The notes beneath the pieces are model-generated. The model saw only the letters and a program-made list of their open reading frames with translations. It ran no database searches and had not been told where the DNA came from. Position numbers and translations under genes: made by a program. A stretch of DNA of 43,340 nt from Nitrospirales bacterium (GTDB lineage Bacteria; Nitrospirota; Nitrospiria; Nitrospirales; UBA8639). Where the stretch lies: contig BQIZ01000010.1 of NCBI GenBank assembly GCA_021604365.1, positions 1 through 43,340 on the forward strand, in the 5' to 3' direction. Shown here piece after piece: positions 6,125-17,047 of the stretch; the stretch's first letter is position 1; each line of letters begins with the position of its first letter.

Positions 6125-6672
6125 TACACACCTCCCTTTGGTGATTAAATAGAAATGAATTAAAAAAGGCGGGGCCTCAAGGGGCTCACTGCCACTCCAT
6201 GTGATAGCCGCCAGAGTGAGACATTTTCCGTCAGTTCTTCCACATACGCCAATATAAATATCTAGGAAAAAATACTTATAATTGAAATTCAAAATCAACT
6301 TCGATGAAATAAAAACTCAAATTCAGTCCATGCCCTTTAACCCAGCCCGCCTTCATTGAATAAGACTCCTATTTCCTTTGACCAAATTTTCCCCTACGGC
6401 ACATCATAAATTGATGTTGGCTTGAACTCCATTTCCCTTAAGTAAATTTATCCGTCTCAGTACCTTTCATCGATAATTCTATTTTCATGAGGATGCCTGA
6501 GCACGCTGTTAAAGGAAATGCCTTTCCTAAACATGCATTTTCTAAACATTGATCATGGTAGGAGGAGCGGAAAGAGTGTTACATTAATGATATTGATATT
6601 GACTTTCATTTATTATAAAGAACACCTCCCTCTCATGCTGTGGCGAAAAGACCATTTGCAGGAGGATTTCAC
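6125..6672. other. Divergent intergenic region between bfr and a + strand gene pair
   Basis: AT-rich region holding the divergent promoters of bfr (-) and of the small gene at 6673 (+). A short inverted repeat TTGAAATTCAA (6282-6292) lies on the bfr side, and a Fur-box-like site (6589-6607) on the other. No gene is supported. Confidence 0.5.
6589..6607 (+). promoter_or_regulatory. Fur-box-like operator upstream of small membrane protein gene
   Basis: GATATTGATATTGACTTTC matches the 19-bp Fur consensus at 14 of 19 positions and lies inside a wider repeat AATGA...TCATT (6586-6610). A -10-like TATAAA (6614-6619) follows and TTGATA (6593-6598) overlaps the site, giving a promoter with a short 15-bp spacer. 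Confidence 0.42.
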
Positions 6673-6807
6673 ATGAACGGGCATTCTTTTATCGTGGAAG
6701 GCGAAAAACCCGTGTTCATCAGCTTGTTGATATCACTGGGATTCGTTTTTCTCAGTATCATTGGTCTGTGGGCATGGCCCGAATTCATGATGGCCATAGG
6801 CCATTAG
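6673..6807 (+). CDS. Small single-pass membrane protein
   Basis: A 44-residue protein with a strong GGAGGA ribosome binding site six bases before ATG. It is a short polar N-terminus (MNGHSFIVEGEKP) followed by one hydrophobic segment of about 20 residues rich in Leu, Ile and Phe, and a short tail ending IGH. Small proteins of this type often accompany transporters or respiratory complexes, but nothing here identifies a partner. The stop is seven bases before the start of the next frame, so the two genes are probably translationally coupled. A Fur-box-like site lies 66 bases upstream. Confidence 0.6.
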   Translation: MNGHSFIVEGEKPVFISLLISLGFVFLSIIGLWAWPEFMMAIGH

Positions 6808-6814
6808 GAAAGGA

Positions 6815-7300
6815 TTGAAGAATGAAAAACGTTGGATGCAGGTCTTTGTGAGTATTCTGATCTATTTGGGTGGTCAAGCCCAAATCGTTCACAGCGTTCA
6901 ATCCGGAACTCCGGATCATCACATAGCCTGGGATCCCCTCCCCAATGGCCTGATTTCCATGGCCTATGACCGCACGGGAGATGGCATCCCGGACCATTTC
7001 ACTTTACACCCCATTACGTGGTCAGGATGGTCGGCCCAAGGGATCGAAGAAATTGCACATCAAGCCTGTATGGATGAACAATGGGTCTTCATGGTGGAGT
7101 ATGCCCAGGATCGGTACGTCTACTTTGTCCAGCAGACTCCCGTATTGGTTGGGGATGTTCCCAAACAAACAGGTAGGTGGATGGCTCCAAATGTGAGACC
7201 CACTGACGTGAAAGCATCTCAACACCTTAACCCGACAGCCCACCAACCTGACAACGTAACATGCCCCATTGCCGTCCCCAGGCAACATCAAAAGCCATGA
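6815..7300 (+). CDS. Probable exported protein of unknown function
   Basis: A 161-residue protein. The frame begins at TTG 6815, with AGGA five bases upstream, giving MKNEKRW then a hydrophobic stretch (VFVSILIYLG) and QAQIVHS, which looks like a signal peptide. An internal ATG at 6836 has no good ribosome binding site. The mature part contains AYDRTGDGIPDHFTLHP, whose DxxGDGxxD loop resembles calcium-binding repeats, and is rich in Trp and His. It follows the small membrane protein by seven bases and is likely in the same Fur-box-preceded unit. No family recognised; a periplasmic metal-binding role is only a guess. Confidence 0.55.
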   Translation: MKNEKRWMQVFVSILIYLGGQAQIVHSVQSGTPDHHIAWDPLPNGLISMAYDRTGDGIPDHFTLHPITWSGWSAQGIEEIAHQACMDEQWVFMVEYAQDRYVYFVQQTPVLVGDVPKQTGRWMAPNVRPTDVKASQHLNPTAHQPDNVTCPIAVPRQHQKP

Positions 7301-7895
7301 CCCACTTTCTTTCCATGGATTGCCGTAGGTCCTCGGGATGTTGCAAAAAGTTCGCTCTTCTCTTTTTTCACATACATCAATGTCCCTCTTTACCGAACGA
7401 ACGAACTAAACAAAATGACTTCCGCACCAGCCAACGAGTAAACCATAGGGCAGGAAGCACCCTGCGGCGTTCCCCCCCCCTTCCTCAATACCTTACGCAA
7501 GATTCTTTCAGAAAACCATTTGTTGACCATTTTATAGATGCTCACTCTCAACTTCAGTTTCACACAATTTTCAAGATGGAGTGGATTTCCAGTGGACGCG
7601 CATGTGGATAGAGGAATGAGTGAATCAGCCATCCCAGGCACAGCGGTCATCCCATAACGGTGCATTAATTGTGGAGATTAAGTGGATGATCAGATACTTG
7701 CAAACCGCCGGGATAATAAAACCCATACGGCCACAGCACCGTATCCCATTTCAGGAAATGCAGGAAAAGCTCTCTGAAGGAAATCGGCTTTTTGAATCTC
7801 CAAATCATGGAATCGGAGGAATAAGCAGGGAAAAGACCGCCAAACCTTTCTAAATTGAGCAAAAAAAATGAGGTGAAAAACTCGAGGAGACCAGA

Positions 7896-8057
7896 ATGAC
7901 TGACGAGAAGCAGAACGCCAGCTACTACAACTTGTTAAAAAAACCTGACTGTCAGTGGAATATCCTATTTATAAATCAACCCAGGGAGCAGCATCCATCC
8001 AGTGGCACCATTCTCTATATTCATCCAATTATTTTTTCATTCAATTCAAACAAATAA
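7896..8057 (+). CDS. Possible small protein
   Basis: A 53-codon frame (MTDEKQNASYYNLLKKPDCQ...) preceded by GAGGAGA five bases before ATG, a strong ribosome binding site. The polar first half and the aromatic- and Ile-rich second half show no recognisable motif. The start signal is the main evidence; it could be an untranslated chance frame. Confidence 0.33.
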   Translation: MTDEKQNASYYNLLKKPDCQWNILFINQPREQHPSSGTILYIHPIIFSFNSNK

Positions 8058-8191
8058 GATATAACCTCCCGGCAGCCGTGTTTTTCCACTGATCATCTGT
8101 TTTCATCAGCATGGTTTTCCACATTAAATGATTCTTTTCCAAATGAGTATCCTTGAAATTGACAATCCTTGGTGGTTTTATGTACCATAAT

Positions 8192-8225
8192 TTGATATTG
8201 ATAATGGATCTCAAATTCATATAAA
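8192..8225 (+). promoter_or_regulatory. Promoter with overlapping Fur-box-like site, redoxin B
   Basis: TTGATA (8198-8203) and TATAAA (8220-8225) are separated by 16 bp. GATATTGATAATGGATCTC (8194-8212) matches the Fur consensus at 14 of 19 positions, best in the left half, and covers the -35. The redoxin-like gene starts 116 bases further on. Confidence 0.42.
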
Positions 8226-8341
8226 TAAAAGTAACCCTAGCCCGCCACCCAGGATGATCGCAAGTGCCCAGACACAACATATTCATGGATCATTTGCTCA
8301 GACCCGGAAGATTATTCACTGAATACCAAGGAGGAAATAGC

Positions 8342-8872
8342 ATGCAGATCGGAACACGTGCTCCAATGTGGAAAACCCCCTGCCTGTTAAATGGAGGATT
8401 GCAGTATCTTCCCCTGACAGCTTTTCAGGGAACCCAATTTGTGTTGTGCTGCTTGCCCGCCTTTACTGAAACCGATGCCTGGTTGTTAGATCAACAAGCC
8501 GACCGGTTTCATGCAAATGGGGCCGTGCTCGCGGCCTTAATACCTGACAAAGCCTTACTTGGGGATTCTTGGTGTCGTCCTCCTCAGGACTTTGGTCTTC
8601 CATTATTGACTGATCCTCTCAATCGCTTGGAACGTTCCCTGCATCTCACTGACTCTTTACCACCCCATCGATGCGAAACATTATTTTTTGACCATCGTTG
8701 CCGCCTACAATTTCGCCTATTCCATGATCTGAACCTCCGAGGGATTACCACAGTGCTTGAGATTGCAGGTAGTGATTTCTGCCAGAGATCTGCTCAACCT
8801 GTTCTCAAGTCCAGGCTCGCCTTCGAACAGTCCCTGGCTCATTGTTCACCACTTGAGGCTCCAACGGGATGA
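8342..8872 (+). CDS. Divergent peroxiredoxin-like protein B, peroxidatic Cys absent
   Basis: A 176-residue thioredoxin-fold protein related to protein A at 4188-4709: the blocks LCCLP, GAVLAALIP, LPLLTD and ETLFFD align in order. Where peroxiredoxins carry the peroxidatic motif PxxxTxxC, this protein reads LPAFTETDAW with no Cys, so classical peroxidase chemistry is unlikely. Other cysteines occur (CC in LCCLP, plus C in SWC and HRC). The start at 8342 is fixed by AAGGAGG (8328-8334) seven bases upstream. A Fur-box-like site precedes it, and the membrane PIN-TRAM gene follows 52 bases later with no terminator, so the two may share a transcript. Function unknown; a sensor or scaffold role is possible. 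Confidence 0.68.
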   Translation: MQIGTRAPMWKTPCLLNGGLQYLPLTAFQGTQFVLCCLPAFTETDAWLLDQQADRFHANGAVLAALIPDKALLGDSWCRPPQDFGLPLLTDPLNRLERSLHLTDSLPPHRCETLFFDHRCRLQFRLFHDLNLRGITTVLEIAGSDFCQRSAQPVLKSRLAFEQSLAHCSPLEAPTG

Positions 8873-8924
8873 ATCTCCTCCACCATCCATCAAATTCTGA
8901 AGTAACCTTTGAAGGAAATACTCT

Positions 8925-10097
8925 ATGATGATTGCACCAGCCTCCACAGTACCCGTTGCTTCGAAAACGCCATTTCTTTCCATTCACCAATGGCTGTATC
9001 TCATTTTGTGTCTCATGGTGGGGATCTATGCTGGTCTAGGACATGCTTCCTCTCAATGGACCGATGTCATTCCAGACATCGTTCTGTTGGGGGCCACCGG
9101 CTTGGCAATCGGCTGCATAGCCCTATGGATAGAACGGCAACTCATGGCATGCCGCCGCTCCACCTTGATTGGTGGTAGCGTAGGACTCATTGTCGCCCTG
9201 GCAGGAATCGGTTTTTTATCGATCATGGGAATGGGAACTGGACTCCTCCAGATGTCCTCCCTTACCCCGTGGATCGGACTCCCTGTGTTTCTTCTCTGTC
9301 CCTACATGGGGCTGATTGTCGGTGTTCACATCTCTAACACACTGTTGCCGGCTCCCATCGATGAACAAACCAAAAATTCCTCTCCTCACACTTCGCTTAG
9401 CCCATCACACACCGTTCAAAAATTGCTGGATTCTAGCGCCATTATCGATGGCCGAATACTTCCTCTCTGCACCACAGGGTTTTTGGAAGGTCCTTTCCTG
9501 GTTCCCAAAAGTATTCTTCATGAACTCCAAACATTAGCCGACTCCGCTCACCCATCTAAACGAATTAAGGGGAAGCGTGGCTTGGATATCTTATCCCAAC
9601 TCCAACAGCTGCCAAACATGGAGGTGATGATAATAGAAGATTGGGAACCCGACATATCCGCGGTTGACCATCAACTTATCGCCATAGCCAAAAATCGCGA
9701 AGCCAAGATCGTGACCAACGATTGGAATCTGGCAAAAGTCGCATTACTTCAAGGTGTATTCTCCCTCAATGTGAACGAATTAACCTACCAATTACGGCCT
9801 TTGGTATTGCCTGGGGAAACAATTCGGGTCTTCATTCACAAGGAGGGGCAAGGGCAAGGGCAGGGGATTGCACATCTGGATGATGGCACGATGGTCGTCG
9901 TTGACCACGGTGCCACTCTGGTCGGTCAAGCCATTGAGGTGGTGGTTACCCGATTCATGCAAACCAACACAGGAAGAATGATTTTCTCAACTCCCCAAAC
10001 CAACACCTCTCCATTGCTTTTCAATCTTCAACCCCTCCCCAATCGCTCAGAGGCAGCTCCGGAATACTCTCGTAGCCTCGTGGAAGACCACGGATGA
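8925..10097 (+). CDS. Membrane-anchored PIN-TRAM domain protein (YacL-like)
   Basis: A 390-residue protein with four predicted membrane segments (about residues 23-40, 50-70, 83-103, 115-136), a cytoplasmic PIN domain (about 166-285) and a C-terminal TRAM domain (about 293-353). PIN acidic residues are visible at D169 (in LLDSSAIIDGR), E200, D248 and D266 (in VTNDW). PIN domains are metal-dependent RNases and TRAM binds RNA, so this is a putative membrane-tethered ribonuclease of the Bacillus YacL type; the family's targets are not well defined. The TRAM start carries an unusual QGQGQG tract encoded by tandem GGGCAA units (9846-9864). GAAGGA lies eight bases before ATG 8925. It probably follows redoxin B in one transcript. 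Confidence 0.85.
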   Translation: MMIAPASTVPVASKTPFLSIHQWLYLILCLMVGIYAGLGHASSQWTDVIPDIVLLGATGLAIGCIALWIERQLMACRRSTLIGGSVGLIVALAGIGFLSIMGMGTGLLQMSSLTPWIGLPVFLLCPYMGLIVGVHISNTLLPAPIDEQTKNSSPHTSLSPSHTVQKLLDSSAIIDGRILPLCTTGFLEGPFLVPKSILHELQTLADSAHPSKRIKGKRGLDILSQLQQLPNMEVMIIEDWEPDISAVDHQLIAIAKNREAKIVTNDWNLAKVALLQGVFSLNVNELTYQLRPLVLPGETIRVFIHKEGQGQGQGIAHLDDGTMVVVDHGATLVGQAIEVVVTRFMQTNTGRMIFSTPQTNTSPLLFNLQPLPNRSEAAPEYSRSLVEDHG

Positions 10098-11080: not shown

Positions 11081-13801
11081 TTATTCATCCAGAAATTGAT
11101 CAACAGCGGCATGAAGAGTAAGTTGAATTTGCTCACAGTTTTCACCGGAAAGAATTTTTTCTCCATGGGAATTAGTCACATAAAAGACATCAGCCACCTG
11201 ATCTAACCTGGTCCCGATTCTCGCCATATGAATTGAGAGATCCAATTGAACCAGCATTTTAGCGATCACAAAGAGTAACCCTTGTTTGTCATCGGCAAAG
11301 ATGTCAATTACCGTATAAGCATCGGATACCCCCTGATCAATATGGACTTCCGTGGGATGCCGGCCAGTTGGAAAGGGACGGCCAAAGGCCATGCGCCGTC
11401 GTCGTTCAACTATTTGGTGCACTGATTGCCTCCCCTCCACGACCTGTTGAATCTCCTGCACCACCTCCTCTAGGCGACCGGCAGATGGCGGCCCTTCATA
11501 ATCAGAATCGTAGACCGAAAATACATCCCACACCGTGCCATCTTTGAGTGTCATAATTTGCGCTTCCAATACCTGCAATCCCATGGTGGCTAATACTCCC
11601 GCCACTTGCATGAAAATTCCCGGCTTGGTCTGTTCCCGCGTGATCAGCACGTACTCCGACACGCCTAACGTTTCATTGAATCTGGCCTCTACTTGGATCG
11701 ACTTTACAGGCAGAGAATGAATGGCTAAAAGATACGCAGCCATCTGATCAACCGGTGTCGATTGAACATACCGACCGGGAAGTTGTTGAAGTGTGGTATT
11801 CACCCATTCCGACCAGTCGAATTCAGGGTAATGCCCTTCGCCTCGATAATTCCTTAAAATCCCGATAAGTTCATTTCGAGCTTTGGGCGAAATTTTCTTA
11901 CTCCCAGCACCGGAATTAGATGGGCCTGTGTCCCCGGCGAGCTCTGCGTAGGTCAGGGAATAAAGTTCGCCTAACAGGGACTCCTTCCATTTCGTCATCA
12001 CCTCAGGTCCCACCGCTGATATATCTGCAATGGTCAGAATGAAGAGCTTCTGAAGGATTCCGACGGTTTTAACATTTCGAGCGAATGTGACAATCGTTTT
12101 AGGATCGTTCAGGTCTCGACGAAAAGCCGTATGAGACATCTGCAAGTGGTGGCGAACCAGGAATGCCAGTGCCTGCCGTTCCTTCTCAGACAAATCCAAC
12201 CGATCAGCCGTTAAGTGGGCAATCCCCTGGCCGACTTCACTATGATCCCCAGGACGCCCTTTTCCTAAATCATGAAGCAACAGTGCCAAATGCAAGATGT
12301 CTTTATCAGGGATGTTCCGGTAGACCTCCCCTATTATTCCTTGATGATTCTGGAGCCGCTCCGCTTCCCTCACTGCGAGCAGACTGTGCTCATCAACCGT
12401 GTATTTATGATATTGATTGAACTGCATGAGTCCACGTACTCGGGAGAAAGCCGGCACGAGTTTTTCCAATAGACCGGCCTGATGCATGGCCTCAAGAGTT
12501 TGGGCTATCCGACCAGGGGTTGACAGAATGTGCCGAAAAAGCCCACTCACCGATTTAATATGAAACTGTTCATTGGGTAGGGTTCCCATGTGCTGGGACA
12601 ATTCATTGAGAATGCACGAATCGATGGGGACAGCCTGACGATAAGAAACCATAAATAACCTAAGAAGCAACATGGGGCTTTCCATCACCTCAAGCAATTT
12701 ATCGGTCTGAATGGTCAATCGATTTTCTAGAATACGGAAATGCCCCTCGATTAAGGGGGGAGGCCACCATCGCCGGACCCGGTCAAGCCAAGTTCCCTTT
12801 CTGGCTTGATCAAGAACCCGCCGACCACGGTCAAACAATCCGGTCGTATGACGGAAATACACTTGCATAAATTGCTCAACGGCCAGCAAATGAGGATGAT
12901 CCACAAATCCCCAAAGCGCAGAGAGTCGGACTTGATCGTCGAACGTGAGGATATCTTGAGCCCGTCCCGCTTCAAAATGTAAAAAACACCGGACTCGCCA
13001 CAGAAATTCCTGTGCCTCCTGCAGAACTTGATAATCCTGAATAGCGATTATTCCCCGATTCGAGAGTTCTTGAATCGTCCCCGCCCCATATCGAGCCTGG
13101 CCAACCCATTGCAGCAAATGCAGATCACGAAGCCCCCCCTTACTTTTCTTAATATTCGGTTCGAGCATAAATACCGTCTCACCAAATTTGGCATATTCTC
13201 TCTCGCGCTCTTGGATTTTATCGAAAACAAACCGTTGCGCTCGCTTCTTGATGATCCGACGTGCGAATTTTCGTTGAAATTCCTGAAACACTGAAGCACT
13301 GCCAATAAGAAATCGTGATTCCATCAATGCGGTACAGGCAGCGAGGTCGGCCTCTGCGATCGTCAGGCATTCTGCGAGGGACCGCACACTATGCCCCACT
13401 TGAAACCCAAGATCCCAAAGCCGATGAAAAACTCCGGTTGAAAGCGCCTCAGCGACTTCTCCTTGATTCCCCTGAGTGAGAATCATGACATCGATATCGG
13501 AATATGGTGCTAACTCCCGCCGCCCATATCCCCCCATAGCCACTAAACAACACTGCTGCCAGCCAGCGCGTACACCGGCATTGCCTTGCTGAATGACCTC
13601 ACGAAACCGCGCGATCAGTAAGGCGTCCATAAAATCTGAAAAAGCCTGGGTGATTTCACTGCCCATCGCCCCTTCGATTAATCGTTGCCGAAGAAACTCC
13701 CGCTGTTCCTGGAGAAGGTGAAGCCCCAGATAGGAGTCCTTGTGTTCCGTTAAACCGGTAGGGGTCAAAGGAAGGTCTTCACTCACAGAAGATAACTCCA
13801 C
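11081..13801 (-). CDS. glnD: [Protein-PII] uridylyltransferase/uridylyl-removing enzyme
   Basis: Bifunctional nitrogen sensor of 906 residues. It uridylylates PII proteins when glutamine is low and removes UMP when glutamine is high. The nucleotidyltransferase motif GGYGRRELAPYSDIDVMIL begins at residue 90 (catalytic pair in SDID, 101-104). An HD hydrolase motif (LLLHDLGKGRPGDHSEVG) lies in the middle, and two ACT glutamine-sensing domains are at the C-terminus (around VLITREQTKPGIFMQVAG and TVIDIFADDKQGLLFVIAKM). Length is typical for the family. It starts at GTG 13801 with only a weak ribosome binding site, 27 bases after the nadE stop, so it is probably cotranscribed with nadE and subject to the same leader control. 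Confidence 0.96.
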   Translation of the reverse strand: MELSSVSEDLPLTPTGLTEHKDSYLGLHLLQEQREFLRQRLIEGAMGSEITQAFSDFMDALLIARFREVIQQGNAGVRAGWQQCCLVAMGGYGRRELAPYSDIDVMILTQGNQGEVAEALSTGVFHRLWDLGFQVGHSVRSLAECLTIAEADLAACTALMESRFLIGSASVFQEFQRKFARRIIKKRAQRFVFDKIQEREREYAKFGETVFMLEPNIKKSKGGLRDLHLLQWVGQARYGAGTIQELSNRGIIAIQDYQVLQEAQEFLWRVRCFLHFEAGRAQDILTFDDQVRLSALWGFVDHPHLLAVEQFMQVYFRHTTGLFDRGRRVLDQARKGTWLDRVRRWWPPPLIEGHFRILENRLTIQTDKLLEVMESPMLLLRLFMVSYRQAVPIDSCILNELSQHMGTLPNEQFHIKSVSGLFRHILSTPGRIAQTLEAMHQAGLLEKLVPAFSRVRGLMQFNQYHKYTVDEHSLLAVREAERLQNHQGIIGEVYRNIPDKDILHLALLLHDLGKGRPGDHSEVGQGIAHLTADRLDLSEKERQALAFLVRHHLQMSHTAFRRDLNDPKTIVTFARNVKTVGILQKLFILTIADISAVGPEVMTKWKESLLGELYSLTYAELAGDTGPSNSGAGSKKISPKARNELIGILRNYRGEGHYPEFDWSEWVNTTLQQLPGRYVQSTPVDQMAAYLLAIHSLPVKSIQVEARFNETLGVSEYVLITREQTKPGIFMQVAGVLATMGLQVLEAQIMTLKDGTVWDVFSVYDSDYEGPPSAGRLEEVVQEIQQVVEGRQSVHQIVERRRRMAFGRPFPTGRHPTEVHIDQGVSDAYTVIDIFADDKQGLLFVIAKMLVQLDLSIHMARIGTRLDQVADVFYVTNSHGEKILSGENCEQIQLTLHAAVDQFLDE

Positions 13802-13828: not shown

Positions 13829-15619
13829 TTAAGCTCCCGAAACAAATCGATTCGTAATCGGCATCCGCCGATCTTTTCCTAACGCTCTCGAAGTAATTTT
13901 AATGCCCACTGGCGCTTGTCGACGCTTGTATTCGCTGCGATCCACCATCCCTATGACCGTTCGGACAACATGAGAATCATAGCCCATTCTCACAATCCTA
14001 TTCATTGACTCATTGTCCTCAACATAGGCTTGTAGAATGGCATCTAACACCGGATAGGGAGGGAGGGCATCCTGATCTGTCTGATCAGGCCTCAACTCAG
14101 CCGACGGGGCGCGCTCCTGAATTCTTTCTGGAATAATCACTCGATCAAAACAAGAGCCTTTATACTCACTTCGCCATCGAGAAAGCTGATACACCTTTGT
14201 TTTGGGAATGTCTTTGATAACGGCAAACCCACCAGCCATATCCCCATACAGCGTCGCATAGCCCACACTCATTTCGCTTTTATTTCCCGTAGTCAACACT
14301 AAGTATCCGAACTTATTGGAAAGAGCCATCAGCAGGGTTCCTCGGATGCGGGCTTGCAGATTTTCTTCTGTCGTATCAGCCTGACAGCCCTGAAAGGATT
14401 TGCCCAACACCCGAAGAAAAGTCTTGAACACGCCTGTTATCGAAAGATTCCGCATATCGATTCCTAATTTTTTCCCTAGCCGGCGAGCATCCTCACGACT
14501 TTCCCTAGAGGTATAGGGGGATGGCATCATGACACCCATGACATTGGACGCGCCTAAGGCATCTCGGGCAATCAATGCGGTCAAAGCCGAATCAATCCCT
14601 CCGCTGATCCCGACAAGAACCCTTGAAAAGGCATTTTTCCTCACATAATCTTGCACTCCTAGCACGAGTGCCCGGTAGATTTCCTCCATCTCCTCGATTA
14701 CCGGTGTGAGCCTTATGACACTTGGAGCTCCAGACTTCGGCCACGTTGGTGTCCACCCCATGCGGATCATCGGAATCCGAACCTCATTGGCATCCACTCC
14801 AGGCTCTTTTCCAAACCTCTTGAATTTTCCCTTTTGTTTTGACGGAATATTGAGATCGGTAAGCAAGAAATCTTCTTTAAAGGCTTTTGCTCGCGCAAGT
14901 ATCCGACCGGTGGAATCCATGACGAGACTATTCCCGTCAAAGACCAATTCATCCTGGCCTCCAACCATATTGGTATAACTGACCATTACATTGTTAGCTT
15001 TAGCCCGAACCGCCAACATGCGTTCACGACTTTGGGTTTTCCCAATGTGATAAGGAGAAGCATTGATGTTTAAGACAAGCTGAGCGCCGCCATACGCTGC
15101 CTGCTGGCTGGCCGGACCATTGGCAAACCATATATCCTCACAAATATTGATTCCAATACGTAACGGACCCAGGCAGTAGACCGGACTGGTTCGTCCCTGT
15201 TGAAAATACCGTTCTTCATCAAACACTCCATAATTGGGCAGCTTTGATTTGGCATACGATCTTTTCACCTGCCCATCGACCAAAACCCAGGCCGCATTGA
15301 AGGGCTTCCTTCGATCAAGCCCGGAGTCCAGGATGGAATGTTGAGCAGGACGATCAGATTCGATTACGCTTCCCACTACGGCCATAATCCCCTTCGTGAC
15401 TTTGGCAATACGGTCCCGCATCCGACTTATATTAAATAGAAACTGCGGCATGAGGAGAAGATCTTCTGGAGGATATCCACACACCGCCAATTCCGGAAAG
15501 ACCACCACATCCGCCTTGGCTTTTTTGGCCTCGCGAATCCATCCGCAAATAATGCGCGTATTCCCCTCTAGATCCCCAACGACCGCATTCATCTGCACCA
15601 TCGCTAGTCGAAGCATCAT
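13829..15619 (-). CDS. nadE: Glutamine-dependent NAD+ synthetase
   Basis: Makes NAD+ from deamido-NAD+ and ATP using glutamine as ammonia donor, the last step of NAD synthesis. The 596-residue protein has an N-terminal nitrilase-type glutaminase (Glu-Lys-Cys triad at E43, K126 and C160 in NICEDIW) and a C-terminal synthetase with the ATP pyrophosphatase loop GISGGIDSAL (about 338-347). The start at 15619 matches the family N-terminus (LRLAMVQMNAVVGDLEGN); a second ATG follows directly. There is no properly spaced ribosome binding site: the only GAGG is in the 3' arm of a terminator hairpin, 14 bases away. The leader carries a promoter and an ANTAR-type antiterminator. glnD follows at 27 bases. 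Confidence 0.96.
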   Translation of the reverse strand: MMLRLAMVQMNAVVGDLEGNTRIICGWIREAKKAKADVVVFPELAVCGYPPEDLLLMPQFLFNISRMRDRIAKVTKGIMAVVGSVIESDRPAQHSILDSGLDRRKPFNAAWVLVDGQVKRSYAKSKLPNYGVFDEERYFQQGRTSPVYCLGPLRIGINICEDIWFANGPASQQAAYGGAQLVLNINASPYHIGKTQSRERMLAVRAKANNVMVSYTNMVGGQDELVFDGNSLVMDSTGRILARAKAFKEDFLLTDLNIPSKQKGKFKRFGKEPGVDANEVRIPMIRMGWTPTWPKSGAPSVIRLTPVIEEMEEIYRALVLGVQDYVRKNAFSRVLVGISGGIDSALTALIARDALGASNVMGVMMPSPYTSRESREDARRLGKKLGIDMRNLSITGVFKTFLRVLGKSFQGCQADTTEENLQARIRGTLLMALSNKFGYLVLTTGNKSEMSVGYATLYGDMAGGFAVIKDIPKTKVYQLSRWRSEYKGSCFDRVIIPERIQERAPSAELRPDQTDQDALPPYPVLDAILQAYVEDNESMNRIVRMGYDSHVVRTVIGMVDRSEYKRRQAPVGIKITSRALGKDRRMPITNRFVSGA

Positions 15620-15622
15620 GAT

Positions 15623-15659
15623 AAAAAAAACGTCCTCTGTCCCATCGGAACCGAGGACG
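15623..15659 (-). terminator. Intrinsic terminator (attenuator) in the nadE leader
   Basis: Reading the - strand, CGTCCTC (15659-15653) pairs with GAGGACG (15637-15631), with an inner TTCC/GGGA stem, followed by eight T (15630-15623). The run ends four bases before the nadE ATG. The nadE promoter lies upstream of it, so the terminator sits inside the nadE transcript and can only make sense as a regulated attenuator. Confidence 0.9.
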
Positions 15660-15707
15660 CCATTGTCCCTTGAGCTAACATATACAGGAAGACGTCGTTG
15701 TCGCCCT
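15654..15707 (-). promoter_or_regulatory. Dual-hexaloop ANTAR target (antiterminator) in the nadE leader
   Basis: On the - strand, hairpin P1 (15707-15686) pairs AGGGCGAC with GTCTTCCT (one C/U mismatch, one G-U) around the hexaloop AACGAC. Hairpin P2 (15669-15654) pairs GGGAC with GTCCT (one G-U) around the hexaloop AATGGC. Both loops have A at position 1 and G at position 4, the identity known for ANTAR-bound RNAs. The 3' arm of P2 is the same sequence as the 5' arm of the terminator, so P2 and the terminator exclude each other. P1 begins about one base after the predicted transcription start. The linker is 16 bases. Confidence 0.8.
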
Positions 15708-15714
15708 TCAGCGT

Positions 15715-15743
15715 ATTATACAAGTGATGAAGAATCCGTTCAA
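15715..15743 (-). promoter_or_regulatory. Sigma-70 promoter of nadE
   Basis: On the - strand, TTGAAC (15743-15738), 17-bp spacer, TATAAT (15720-15715). The -10 is a perfect consensus and the -35 matches in five of six. The expected start is an A at about 15708, 89 bases before the nadE ATG and immediately before hairpin P1. Confidence 0.82.
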
Positions 15744-15793: not shown

Positions 15794-17047
15794 CTATTGA
15801 GTCGCCCGTTGAAGTTCCTCCGCAAGGATAATCGCATCCGCAATTTCCCTCATGGATTTTCGAAGATTCATGCTTTGTCGTTGCATAAGACGAAACGCTT
15901 CAGGCTCTGACAATCCCCTAGACGCCATTAAAAATCCCTTAGCACGCTCTACCAATTTTCGCACTTCCAGGGCCTCCTGCATCTCAAACGACTTTTCCAT
16001 AAGCCGAGTGTGCTCTATGGCGACGGCGGATTGATTCGCAATGGCTTGAAGCGTGATAACTTCTTCATCTGAAAACGCATGGTAACTGGAAGTGTATACA
16101 TTTATCACCCCAATCGGATTTTCTTTCATGAGCATGGGGATGGACAATAAAGAATGCAATCCTTCCTGTTTCGCCAAATCCCGATAAAAATATCCGTCTT
16201 CCGCCTTTACATCCGAGACATACACCGGATGGTGATCCTGCACAGCCCGACCACTCATGCTCTGCCCAACCTTCAATGGTGGCTTCCGCCGGTACGCATC
16301 ACTCAGACTTTGAGTGGCGGCAATCCGAAGTTCCCCCGAAGCCTGGTCGACAAGCATGATCGAGCAGATCTTTGAATTCATCAGCTGAGCCGTCATAGTC
16401 ACAATTAATTGCAGCACATCCTCTATCAGTCGATTAGACGCCACCGTTTCCGATACCTGGGAAAGGGTTTCAAGCCGACGCGCTTTTTGCCGCATATCAT
16501 CGTACAATCTGGCATTGGCAATGGCTCCGCCGACTTGATTAGCAATGGTCAGTAAGAGGGCTAACGTTTCTTCGGCATACCGTTTTGGCCGCTTATGCTG
16601 AACATTGATGACTCCGATCATTTTCCCCTTACTTGTGATGGGAACTGACACAAACGCCTGGAAACGATCTTCCGGCAGACGATGAAAAAACTTAAATCTG
16701 GCGTCATCACTTGCATTGCGGGAAATTACCACTGGAACTTTTTCTCGTGCCACCCATCCGGTAATCCCTTCGCCCAGACCAATAGATATCCGTCCGATGA
16801 GCCGGGGATGAGGATTTTTTGATGCACGCAGAATAAGTTCGTCTGTTGTTTCAGAGATCAAATACAACAGACAGGCATCCCCCTTCGTCACTTCAACAAC
16901 CACCTCCACTATTTGCTTTAATACTGTTTCCAGCTCCAAAGAACCACTAATGGATTCGCTGATTCGGTGAAGAATCTGCACTTCACGGCTCCGTTCCCGA
17001 ACGAGGTGCTTCAGGTCTTCTATGGTCGAAGGACGGGCCGGAGCCAT
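15794..17047 (-). CDS. GAF-GAF-ANTAR RNA-binding antitermination regulator
   Basis: A 417-residue protein with two GAF sensor domains (about 35-185 and 205-350) and a C-terminal ANTAR domain (about 358-412), whose core reads VERAKGFLMASRGLSEPEAF. ANTAR domains bind paired RNA hairpins with six-base loops and prevent formation of a terminator; GAF domains usually bind small ligands or respond to redox state. No receiver domain or histidine kinase is present, so the signal probably acts directly on the GAF domains. It starts one base after the aroB stop, with AGGAAA upstream, in the same transcription unit. A matching dual-hexaloop leader lies just downstream in front of nadE, which makes it the likely regulator of nadE-glnD. 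The ligand is unknown. Confidence 0.92.
   Translation of the reverse strand: MAPARPSTIEDLKHLVRERSREVQILHRISESISGSLELETVLKQIVEVVVEVTKGDACLLYLISETTDELILRASKNPHPRLIGRISIGLGEGITGWVAREKVPVVISRNASDDARFKFFHRLPEDRFQAFVSVPITSKGKMIGVINVQHKRPKRYAEETLALLLTIANQVGGAIANARLYDDMRQKARRLETLSQVSETVASNRLIEDVLQLIVTMTAQLMNSKICSIMLVDQASGELRIAATQSLSDAYRRKPPLKVGQSMSGRAVQDHHPVYVSDVKAEDGYFYRDLAKQEGLHSLLSIPMLMKENPIGVINVYTSSYHAFSDEEVITLQAIANQSAVAIEHTRLMEKSFEMQEALEVRKLVERAKGFLMASRGLSEPEAFRLMQRQSMNLRKSMREIADAIILAEELQRATQ

Follow-up and report, generated by a model that had tools for sequence, protein, structure and literature searches.

Putative ANTAR-Controlled Transcription Attenuation of nadE-glnD and a Candidate Nitrogen Regulon in the Nitrospira Order

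Introduction

The control of nitrogen genes through ANTAR proteins and dual-hexaloop leaders is already known (PMC3369931). Among the closest described systems are the eut leaders of Enterococcus faecalis, which contain two small hairpins, loops with A at position 1 and G at position 4 (A1 and G4) and an overlap between the second hairpin (P2) and a terminator; their regulator, EutV, is a phosphorylated response regulator for ethanolamine (PMC3369931, PMC8934654). In the Klebsiella nasF leader, the ANTAR protein NasR carries its own sensor domain, a NIT-type nitrate/nitrite sensor, and serves nitrogen assimilation through the nas operon (PMC3369931, PMC7496416). Ramesh et al. (2012) predicted ANTAR dual-hexaloop nitrogen regulons with several attenuators per genome, located ahead of genes for PII, ammonium, urea and nitrite, including at least 13 sites in six units in Desulfotomaculum acetoxidans (PMC3369931). 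At the protein level, glutamine-dependent NadE is tied to PII and GlnD by protein-protein control of its activity (PMC7196632).

The locus described here lies in a 43,340-nucleotide stretch of Nitrospirota DNA, referred to as the window. It resembles the eut leaders in its two hairpins, loop identity and P2-terminator overlap, however the adjacent ANTAR protein has two GAF stretches with no receiver domain matched in a Pfam scan, its targets appear to be nitrogen genes, and loop position 1 is A or G. Compared to the regulons of Ramesh et al., the differences lie in the phylum, the nadE-glnD target and the occurrence of single-hexaloop, seven-base-loop and two-terminator forms. Whereas NasR has a NIT-type sensor and one operon, the GAF-GAF protein would serve a regulon, and whereas PII acts on NadE activity, the control proposed here is of transcription read-through.

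A literature search by titles and abstract starts returned no relevant paper on Nitrospira with ANTAR or antitermination, and none on nadE, glnD or NAD synthetase with an ANTAR domain among the matches listed; a Nitrospira-order ANTAR regulon, or nadE-glnD as an ANTAR target, was not found at this level. The main text of PMC3369931, searched apart from its supplementary tables, contains neither 'nad' nor 'Nitrospira' as word starts. The Nitrospira-order targets and phylum, a GAF domain resembling glutamine sensors, and the single-hexaloop, seven-base-loop and double-terminator variants therefore appear to be new.

Materials and Methods

An ANTAR protein query of a genome collection gave 41 loci, 40 of them with a Nitrospira-type label and one (L049) labelled Nitrospinota. 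Further loci were drawn from 245 sampled genomes of the phylum, 98 of which have an ANTAR match. In 38 loci, the window included, the ANTAR gene is followed by nadE, and the leaders of these were picked by gene position. The window was scanned on both strands with a strict descriptor requiring A1 and G4 in both loops, a P2 stem of at least 4 pairs and an overlapping terminator. A covariance model built from leaders, R1, was run over the 245 genomes with a site threshold of E<=0.01, and 120 matches were used to build a second model, R2, run on 20 chosen genomes. Loops were counted in 102 distinct rows of the 120 R1 matches, with a few evidently spurious ones left in (L151 twice, L157:8569 and L137:2630). 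A loose pattern, GGACRANGNCGTCC, matched 167 of the 245 genomes, often repeatedly, with its backward-read control about equally frequent, and was replaced by the covariance model. Regulon targets were named by profile scanning of one representative per type, several falling below the strictest NCBIfam cut-offs, and by eye for the others.

Architecture of the nadE Leader

An earlier sequence-only reading of this DNA had described, ahead of nadE, a near-perfect sigma-70 promoter, two hairpins with A1/G4 hexaloops and a terminator, downstream of a gene for a GAF-GAF-ANTAR protein. The promoter, both loops and the domain content of the upstream gene were borne out by direct reading and Pfam scanning (Table 1). 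The terminator does end in eight T, however the distance from this run to the nadE ATG, given as four bases, is three (ATC).

Table 1. Features of the nadE-glnD locus, in window positions.
Feature	Position	Strand	Details	Basis
GAF-GAF-ANTAR protein, presumed cognate antiterminator	15794..17047	-		Pfam ANTAR 1e-20, two GAF stretches
Sigma-70-type promoter, nadE leader	15715..15743	-	TTGAAC-17-TATAAT; -35 box 15743-15738, -10 box 15720-15715	Read from sequence
P1 antiterminator hairpin	15687..15706	-	Hexaloop AACGAC (15699-15694)	Sequence and covariation
P2 antiterminator hairpin	15654..15669	-	Hexaloop AATGGC (15664-15659)	GGAC/GTCC in 36/38 ANTAR-nadE intergenic regions
Intrinsic terminator	15623..15659	-	5' arm common to P2 3' arm; stem 15659-15631, T8 15630-15623	Sequence, covariation, folding
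nadE, glutamine-dependent NAD synthetase (CN hydrolase and NAD synthase)	13829..15619	-	ATG at 15619	Pfam; NF010588, 3.6e-218
glnD, PII uridylyltransferase	11081..13801	-	Start codon uncertain	Pfam; TIGR01693, 5.7e-210

The promoter is separated from the stop codon of the ANTAR gene by 50 nt on the minus strand, and the form TTGAA[C/G]-17-TATAAT is present in 11 of the 36 scanned nadE leaders (window included), all close relatives. P1, GGGCGAC[AACGAC]GTCTTCC, has a stem with one C x U mismatch and is joined by a 17-nt linker to P2, GGGAC[AATGGC]GTCCT; each hairpin has at least three pairs and a six-base loop. The strict scan of the 43 kb window returned a single match, the nadE leader, and matches were obtained in 2 of 200 dinucleotide-shuffled windows. 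The gene glnD, 27 nt beyond nadE, is presumed to be cotranscribed with it.

As the sequence-only reading had proposed, and as comparison with related genomes supports, the nadE leader is very probably a transcription attenuator controlled by the neighbouring GAF-GAF-ANTAR protein. Comparison bears out the structure, its conservation, the mutual exclusion, the co-occurrence with the protein and the content of the regulon. Transcription would start at the promoter immediately downstream of the ANTAR gene, and by default the nascent RNA would adopt the terminator and stop ahead of nadE. We infer that the active protein binds the hexaloops of P1 and P2 as soon as they are transcribed and stabilizes P2, withholding the terminator 5' arm so that polymerase would continue into nadE and glnD.

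Conservation of the Leader

P2 and the terminator are retained in 36 of the 38 ANTAR-nadE intergenic regions, the motif being absent in L025 and L030. An upstream hexaloop with A or G at position 1, G4 and at least three pairs accompanies them in 30 of these 36 and is absent in L041, L047, L050, L052, L068 and L071. In the 23 aligned dual leaders, two-sided change is found at 3 of 7 pairs in P1, where the two loop-adjacent pairs are invariant and 85.1% of cells are paired, and at 3 of 12 pairs in the terminator, where 98.2% of cells are paired. The P2 stem is nearly invariant among these leaders, which is understandable since its 3' arm has two partners. On balance, the check proposed with the sequence-only reading, by covariance model, A1/G4 conservation and compensatory change, came out in its favour, the compensatory change lying in P1 and the terminator. 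The 6 two-sided pairs of P1 and the terminator compare with a shuffle average of 3.2 (1 of 500 shuffles as high), and their covariation score of 0.195 compares with 0.148 +/- 0.010 in shuffles (0 of 500), a score that related sequences can yield without structure. Extra pair types in P1 and the terminator were not above shuffles (110 of 500 as high), nor were the two-sided pairs of P1 and P2 alone (3 against a shuffle average of 2.4, with 230 of 500 as high).

The terminator 3' arm (15643-15631, minus strand) holds AGAGGA, which may have a second role as the nadE ribosome-binding site. It is very unlikely, however, that the ANTAR protein binds the leader and controls mainly translation through this site. 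The three bases between the T run and the ATG leave no room for another Shine-Dalgarno sequence, and translational control has been suggested for matches without terminators (PMC3369931). Against this, each of the 23 aligned dual leaders has a run of T7 to T9 after its stem (the run is shorter or broken in L060-L066), and other leaders have their ATG tens to about 190 bases further downstream.

Folding and Mutual Exclusion

Under forced folding, the terminator state is predicted at -27.8 kcal/mol and the P1 plus P2 state at -20.2 kcal/mol, a difference of 7.6 in favour of the terminator. In predicted folds of nascent prefixes, P2 is present at 56, 60, 64, 68 and 72 nt and lost at 76 nt; P2 is thus predicted to fold before the terminator 3' arm exists, in the interval in which antiterminator proteins usually act. 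A near-isoenergetic competitor of P1 was found in the window sequence (-27.5 with P1 forced, -27.8 free), and P1 may therefore itself need the protein. The 146-nt region has no unusual stability (z -1.13, with an equally good fold in 27 of 200 shuffles), so that folding energy is not the evidence for the element.

The claim that the P2 3' arm is also the terminator 5' arm, making the two mutually exclusive, agrees with the sequence overlap, the nascent folds and a three-way covariation across the 87 of 102 rows that contain GGAC and GTCC. At one position of the shared arm, 57 of these 87 sites keep both pairings, 28 keep the terminator pairing only and none keeps the P2 pairing only. Where the shared base is G (10 sites), the P2 partner is C in 10/10 and the terminator partner is C or T in 10/10; where it is T (76 sites), an A or G stands opposite it in the terminator in 75/76 and in P2 in 47/76. 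On this wider site set, the P2 and terminator partners of the shared arm change together.

The GAF-GAF-ANTAR Protein

The protein encoded upstream of nadE is the sole ANTAR match in the window genome, which is approximately 93% complete, and its ANTAR domain (PF03861) scores 73.7 bits against a curated cut-off of 27.3. The RNA-contact residues of EutV are largely shared: R142, K143 and M172 are identical, and K147 and Y164 are conservatively replaced by R and F (residue list from PMC8934654, with a numbering offset of two deduced from the alignment). The N-terminal GAF domain (GAF1) is closest to the GAF domains of PtsP (5.8e-40) and NifA (8.5e-26), both below the whole-protein family cut-offs. 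The PtsP GAF domain is reported to bind glutamine (PMC4848567). From this similarity and the nature of the targets, we infer that the signal is nitrogen status, probably glutamine or 2-oxoglutarate sensed by GAF1, with glutamine the suggested ligand and scarcity turning the operons on.

A Candidate Nitrogen Regulon

Strong and mostly multiple R1 sites were found in two families of the order, that of the window (f1) and another (f2) that its named loci suggest is the Nitrospira family. The regulon is larger than first observed at the nadE leader. In the window genome, the second of two R1 sites (G000:C7:16809-16903) precedes genes encoding a BBP2 porin, an ammonium transporter and a PII protein (porin-amtB-glnK), and the ORF beyond them reads by eye as glutamine synthetase. 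In other genomes, sites are found ahead of NirC- and NirA-like genes (in some cases led by a NifA/NtrC-like sigma-54 activator), a porin with UrtA, PII with Amt, an NMT1-like substrate-binding protein of an apparent nitrate ABC transporter, and cyanase (cynS). Judged by these gene assignments, the R1 sites form a nitrogen regulon of nadE-glnD, porin-amtB-glnK, urtA, nirC-nirA, a nitrate-type ABC transporter and cynS, which the same ANTAR protein would serve, in the window genome at least at porin-amtB-glnK as well as nadE. A regulon-type NirA was not found in the window genome (approximately 93% complete), only stretches 28-35% identical within a longer frame, and the regulon seen there thus consists of two operons. 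Some R1 sites precede ORFs without a name (for instance L153:6194-6287, with no Pfam match, L166, L158:8105 and L169). In L056 (Nitrospira moscoviensis), positions 6593-9285 hold the ANTAR gene followed by ORFs that by eye resemble a urea ABC substrate-binding protein and urease.

Nitrospira and their relatives are important in nitrification. The proposed regulon offers a concrete, testable regulator for them, one that would couple both NAD synthesis and the modification of PII to the nitrogen supply through transcription.

Co-Occurrence of Protein and RNA

Within f1 and f2, R1 sites are present in 51 of 53 genomes with an ANTAR match and in 1 of 24 without (Fisher 2.9e-16), a comparison that counts genomes rather than events because the genomes are related. 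The two ANTAR-bearing genomes of the order with no R1 site at E<=0.01 are G197 and G216. Outside these families, sites were found in 2 of 45 genomes with ANTAR (G139, G159) and 1 of 123 without (G109, E 0.007), so that R1 says nothing on the rest of the phylum. A 40-row NadE tree, from 55 loci with a NadE match, requires two changes of the ANTAR label. G167, the lone f2 genome that has a site but no ANTAR, splits off before the other members of its ANTAR-less clade of 20 in this tree, and no listed forward frame of 80 codons occurs until 1.3 kb downstream of the site; given this position and frame-poor surroundings, the site is probably a relic. A similar stretch, which looks like a repeated element, stands between attenuator and nadE in L173 and L175 and beside the G167 relic, on its downstream side (L148/L232).

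At E<=1, R2 found nothing in the four ANTAR-less genomes searched other than G167, and nothing in ANTAR-bearing G197. A T6 run within 240 nt of nadE leaders was found in 0 of 24 ANTAR-less f2 genomes. Among 34 ANTAR-bearing genomes searched for NadE, 3 gave no full match; the nadE start region of the remaining 31 has a hexaloop attenuator in 20, none in 10 and was not assessable in 1. The gene nadE is a common, not universal, target, and in G009 and G244 it lies so near the ANTAR gene that a separate leader would hardly fit.

Two readings without a role for the protein bear on these results. That the leader is a protein-free riboswitch responding to NAD, glutamine or some metabolite of that kind, and the ANTAR gene merely adjacent to it, is highly improbable: nadE and nitrogen genes would be plausible subjects of riboswitch control and the P1/P2/terminator design is switch-like, however no Rfam family exceeded its threshold in the window, the conserved parts are the small hairpins with hexaloops and the terminator, joined by a linker that varies, and absence of the element goes with absence of ANTAR. 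Hardly any credence can be given to the hairpins being the ordinary terminator of the ANTAR transcript with loops that are chance look-alikes; the terminator does stand directly behind the ANTAR gene, however a promoter kept in close relatives intervenes between the ANTAR stop and the hairpins, the motif also precedes amtB, urtA, nirC and others away from an ANTAR gene, conservation is seen at loop positions 1, 2 and 4 and variation at 3 and 5 (a partly circular statistic, see below), and the motif is nearly absent from genomes of the order without ANTAR.

Loop Recognition and Natural Variants

P1 loops of six bases (n=99) carry A1 in 89, G1 in 10 and G4 in 95, and P2 rows (n=102) carry A1 in 87, G1 in 14, T1 in 1 and G4 in 94; these statistics, like the conservation of positions 1, 2 and 4, are partly circular because the R1 model contains loop positions. 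Of the A1/G4 identity expected from the sequence-only reading, G4 largely holds across relatives and strict A1 gives way to A or G. Seven f1 leaders (L133, L135, L137, L139, L143, L144 and L147) have a seven-base P2 loop, GGAC[AATGNNC]GTCC, which keeps A1 and G4 and places them out of register in the loop count. The L133 leader precedes nirC, and the other six precede a sigma-54 activator, with a nirC-like gene next in 4 of the 6.

Wider searches found single-hexaloop sites, with weaker E-values, in further families of the class ahead of nadE, sigma-54 activators and glnA (that of L151 profile-scanned, those of L238 and L242 named by eye). A single hexaloop over the terminator, with no upstream ANTAR-type P1 of at least three pairs seen, occurs in L225, L242, L050, L068 and L071, which are candidates for natural single-hexaloop control and so relevant to what the minimal ANTAR site is, a question raised in PMC8934654. 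A broader reading, tentative and somewhat short of an even chance, makes a single glutamine-sensing GAF-GAF-ANTAR protein the master regulator of nitrogen in the Nitrospira order, with RNA and not DNA as its point of action; it would co-control GlnK, its modifying enzyme GlnD, the PII partners AmtB and NadE, and glutamine synthetase, together with the routes for urea, nitrite and cyanate, via one, two or three hexaloops, a single hexaloop over the terminator being sufficient.

The L224/L249 leader resembles the single-hexaloop ones, and its upstream hairpin has a loop readable as seven bases with A1 and G4. The nadE leaders of L060-L066 have three hairpins whose hexaloops carry A or G at position 1 and G4, and by eye contain two serial terminators, each with its own overlapping hexaloop. 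Across the 89 loci covered, dual-hexaloop attenuators stand in tandem before one gene at L155:17798-17980, L157:8521-8729, L159:3156-3386 and L169:4850-5032, so that two terminators must be passed.
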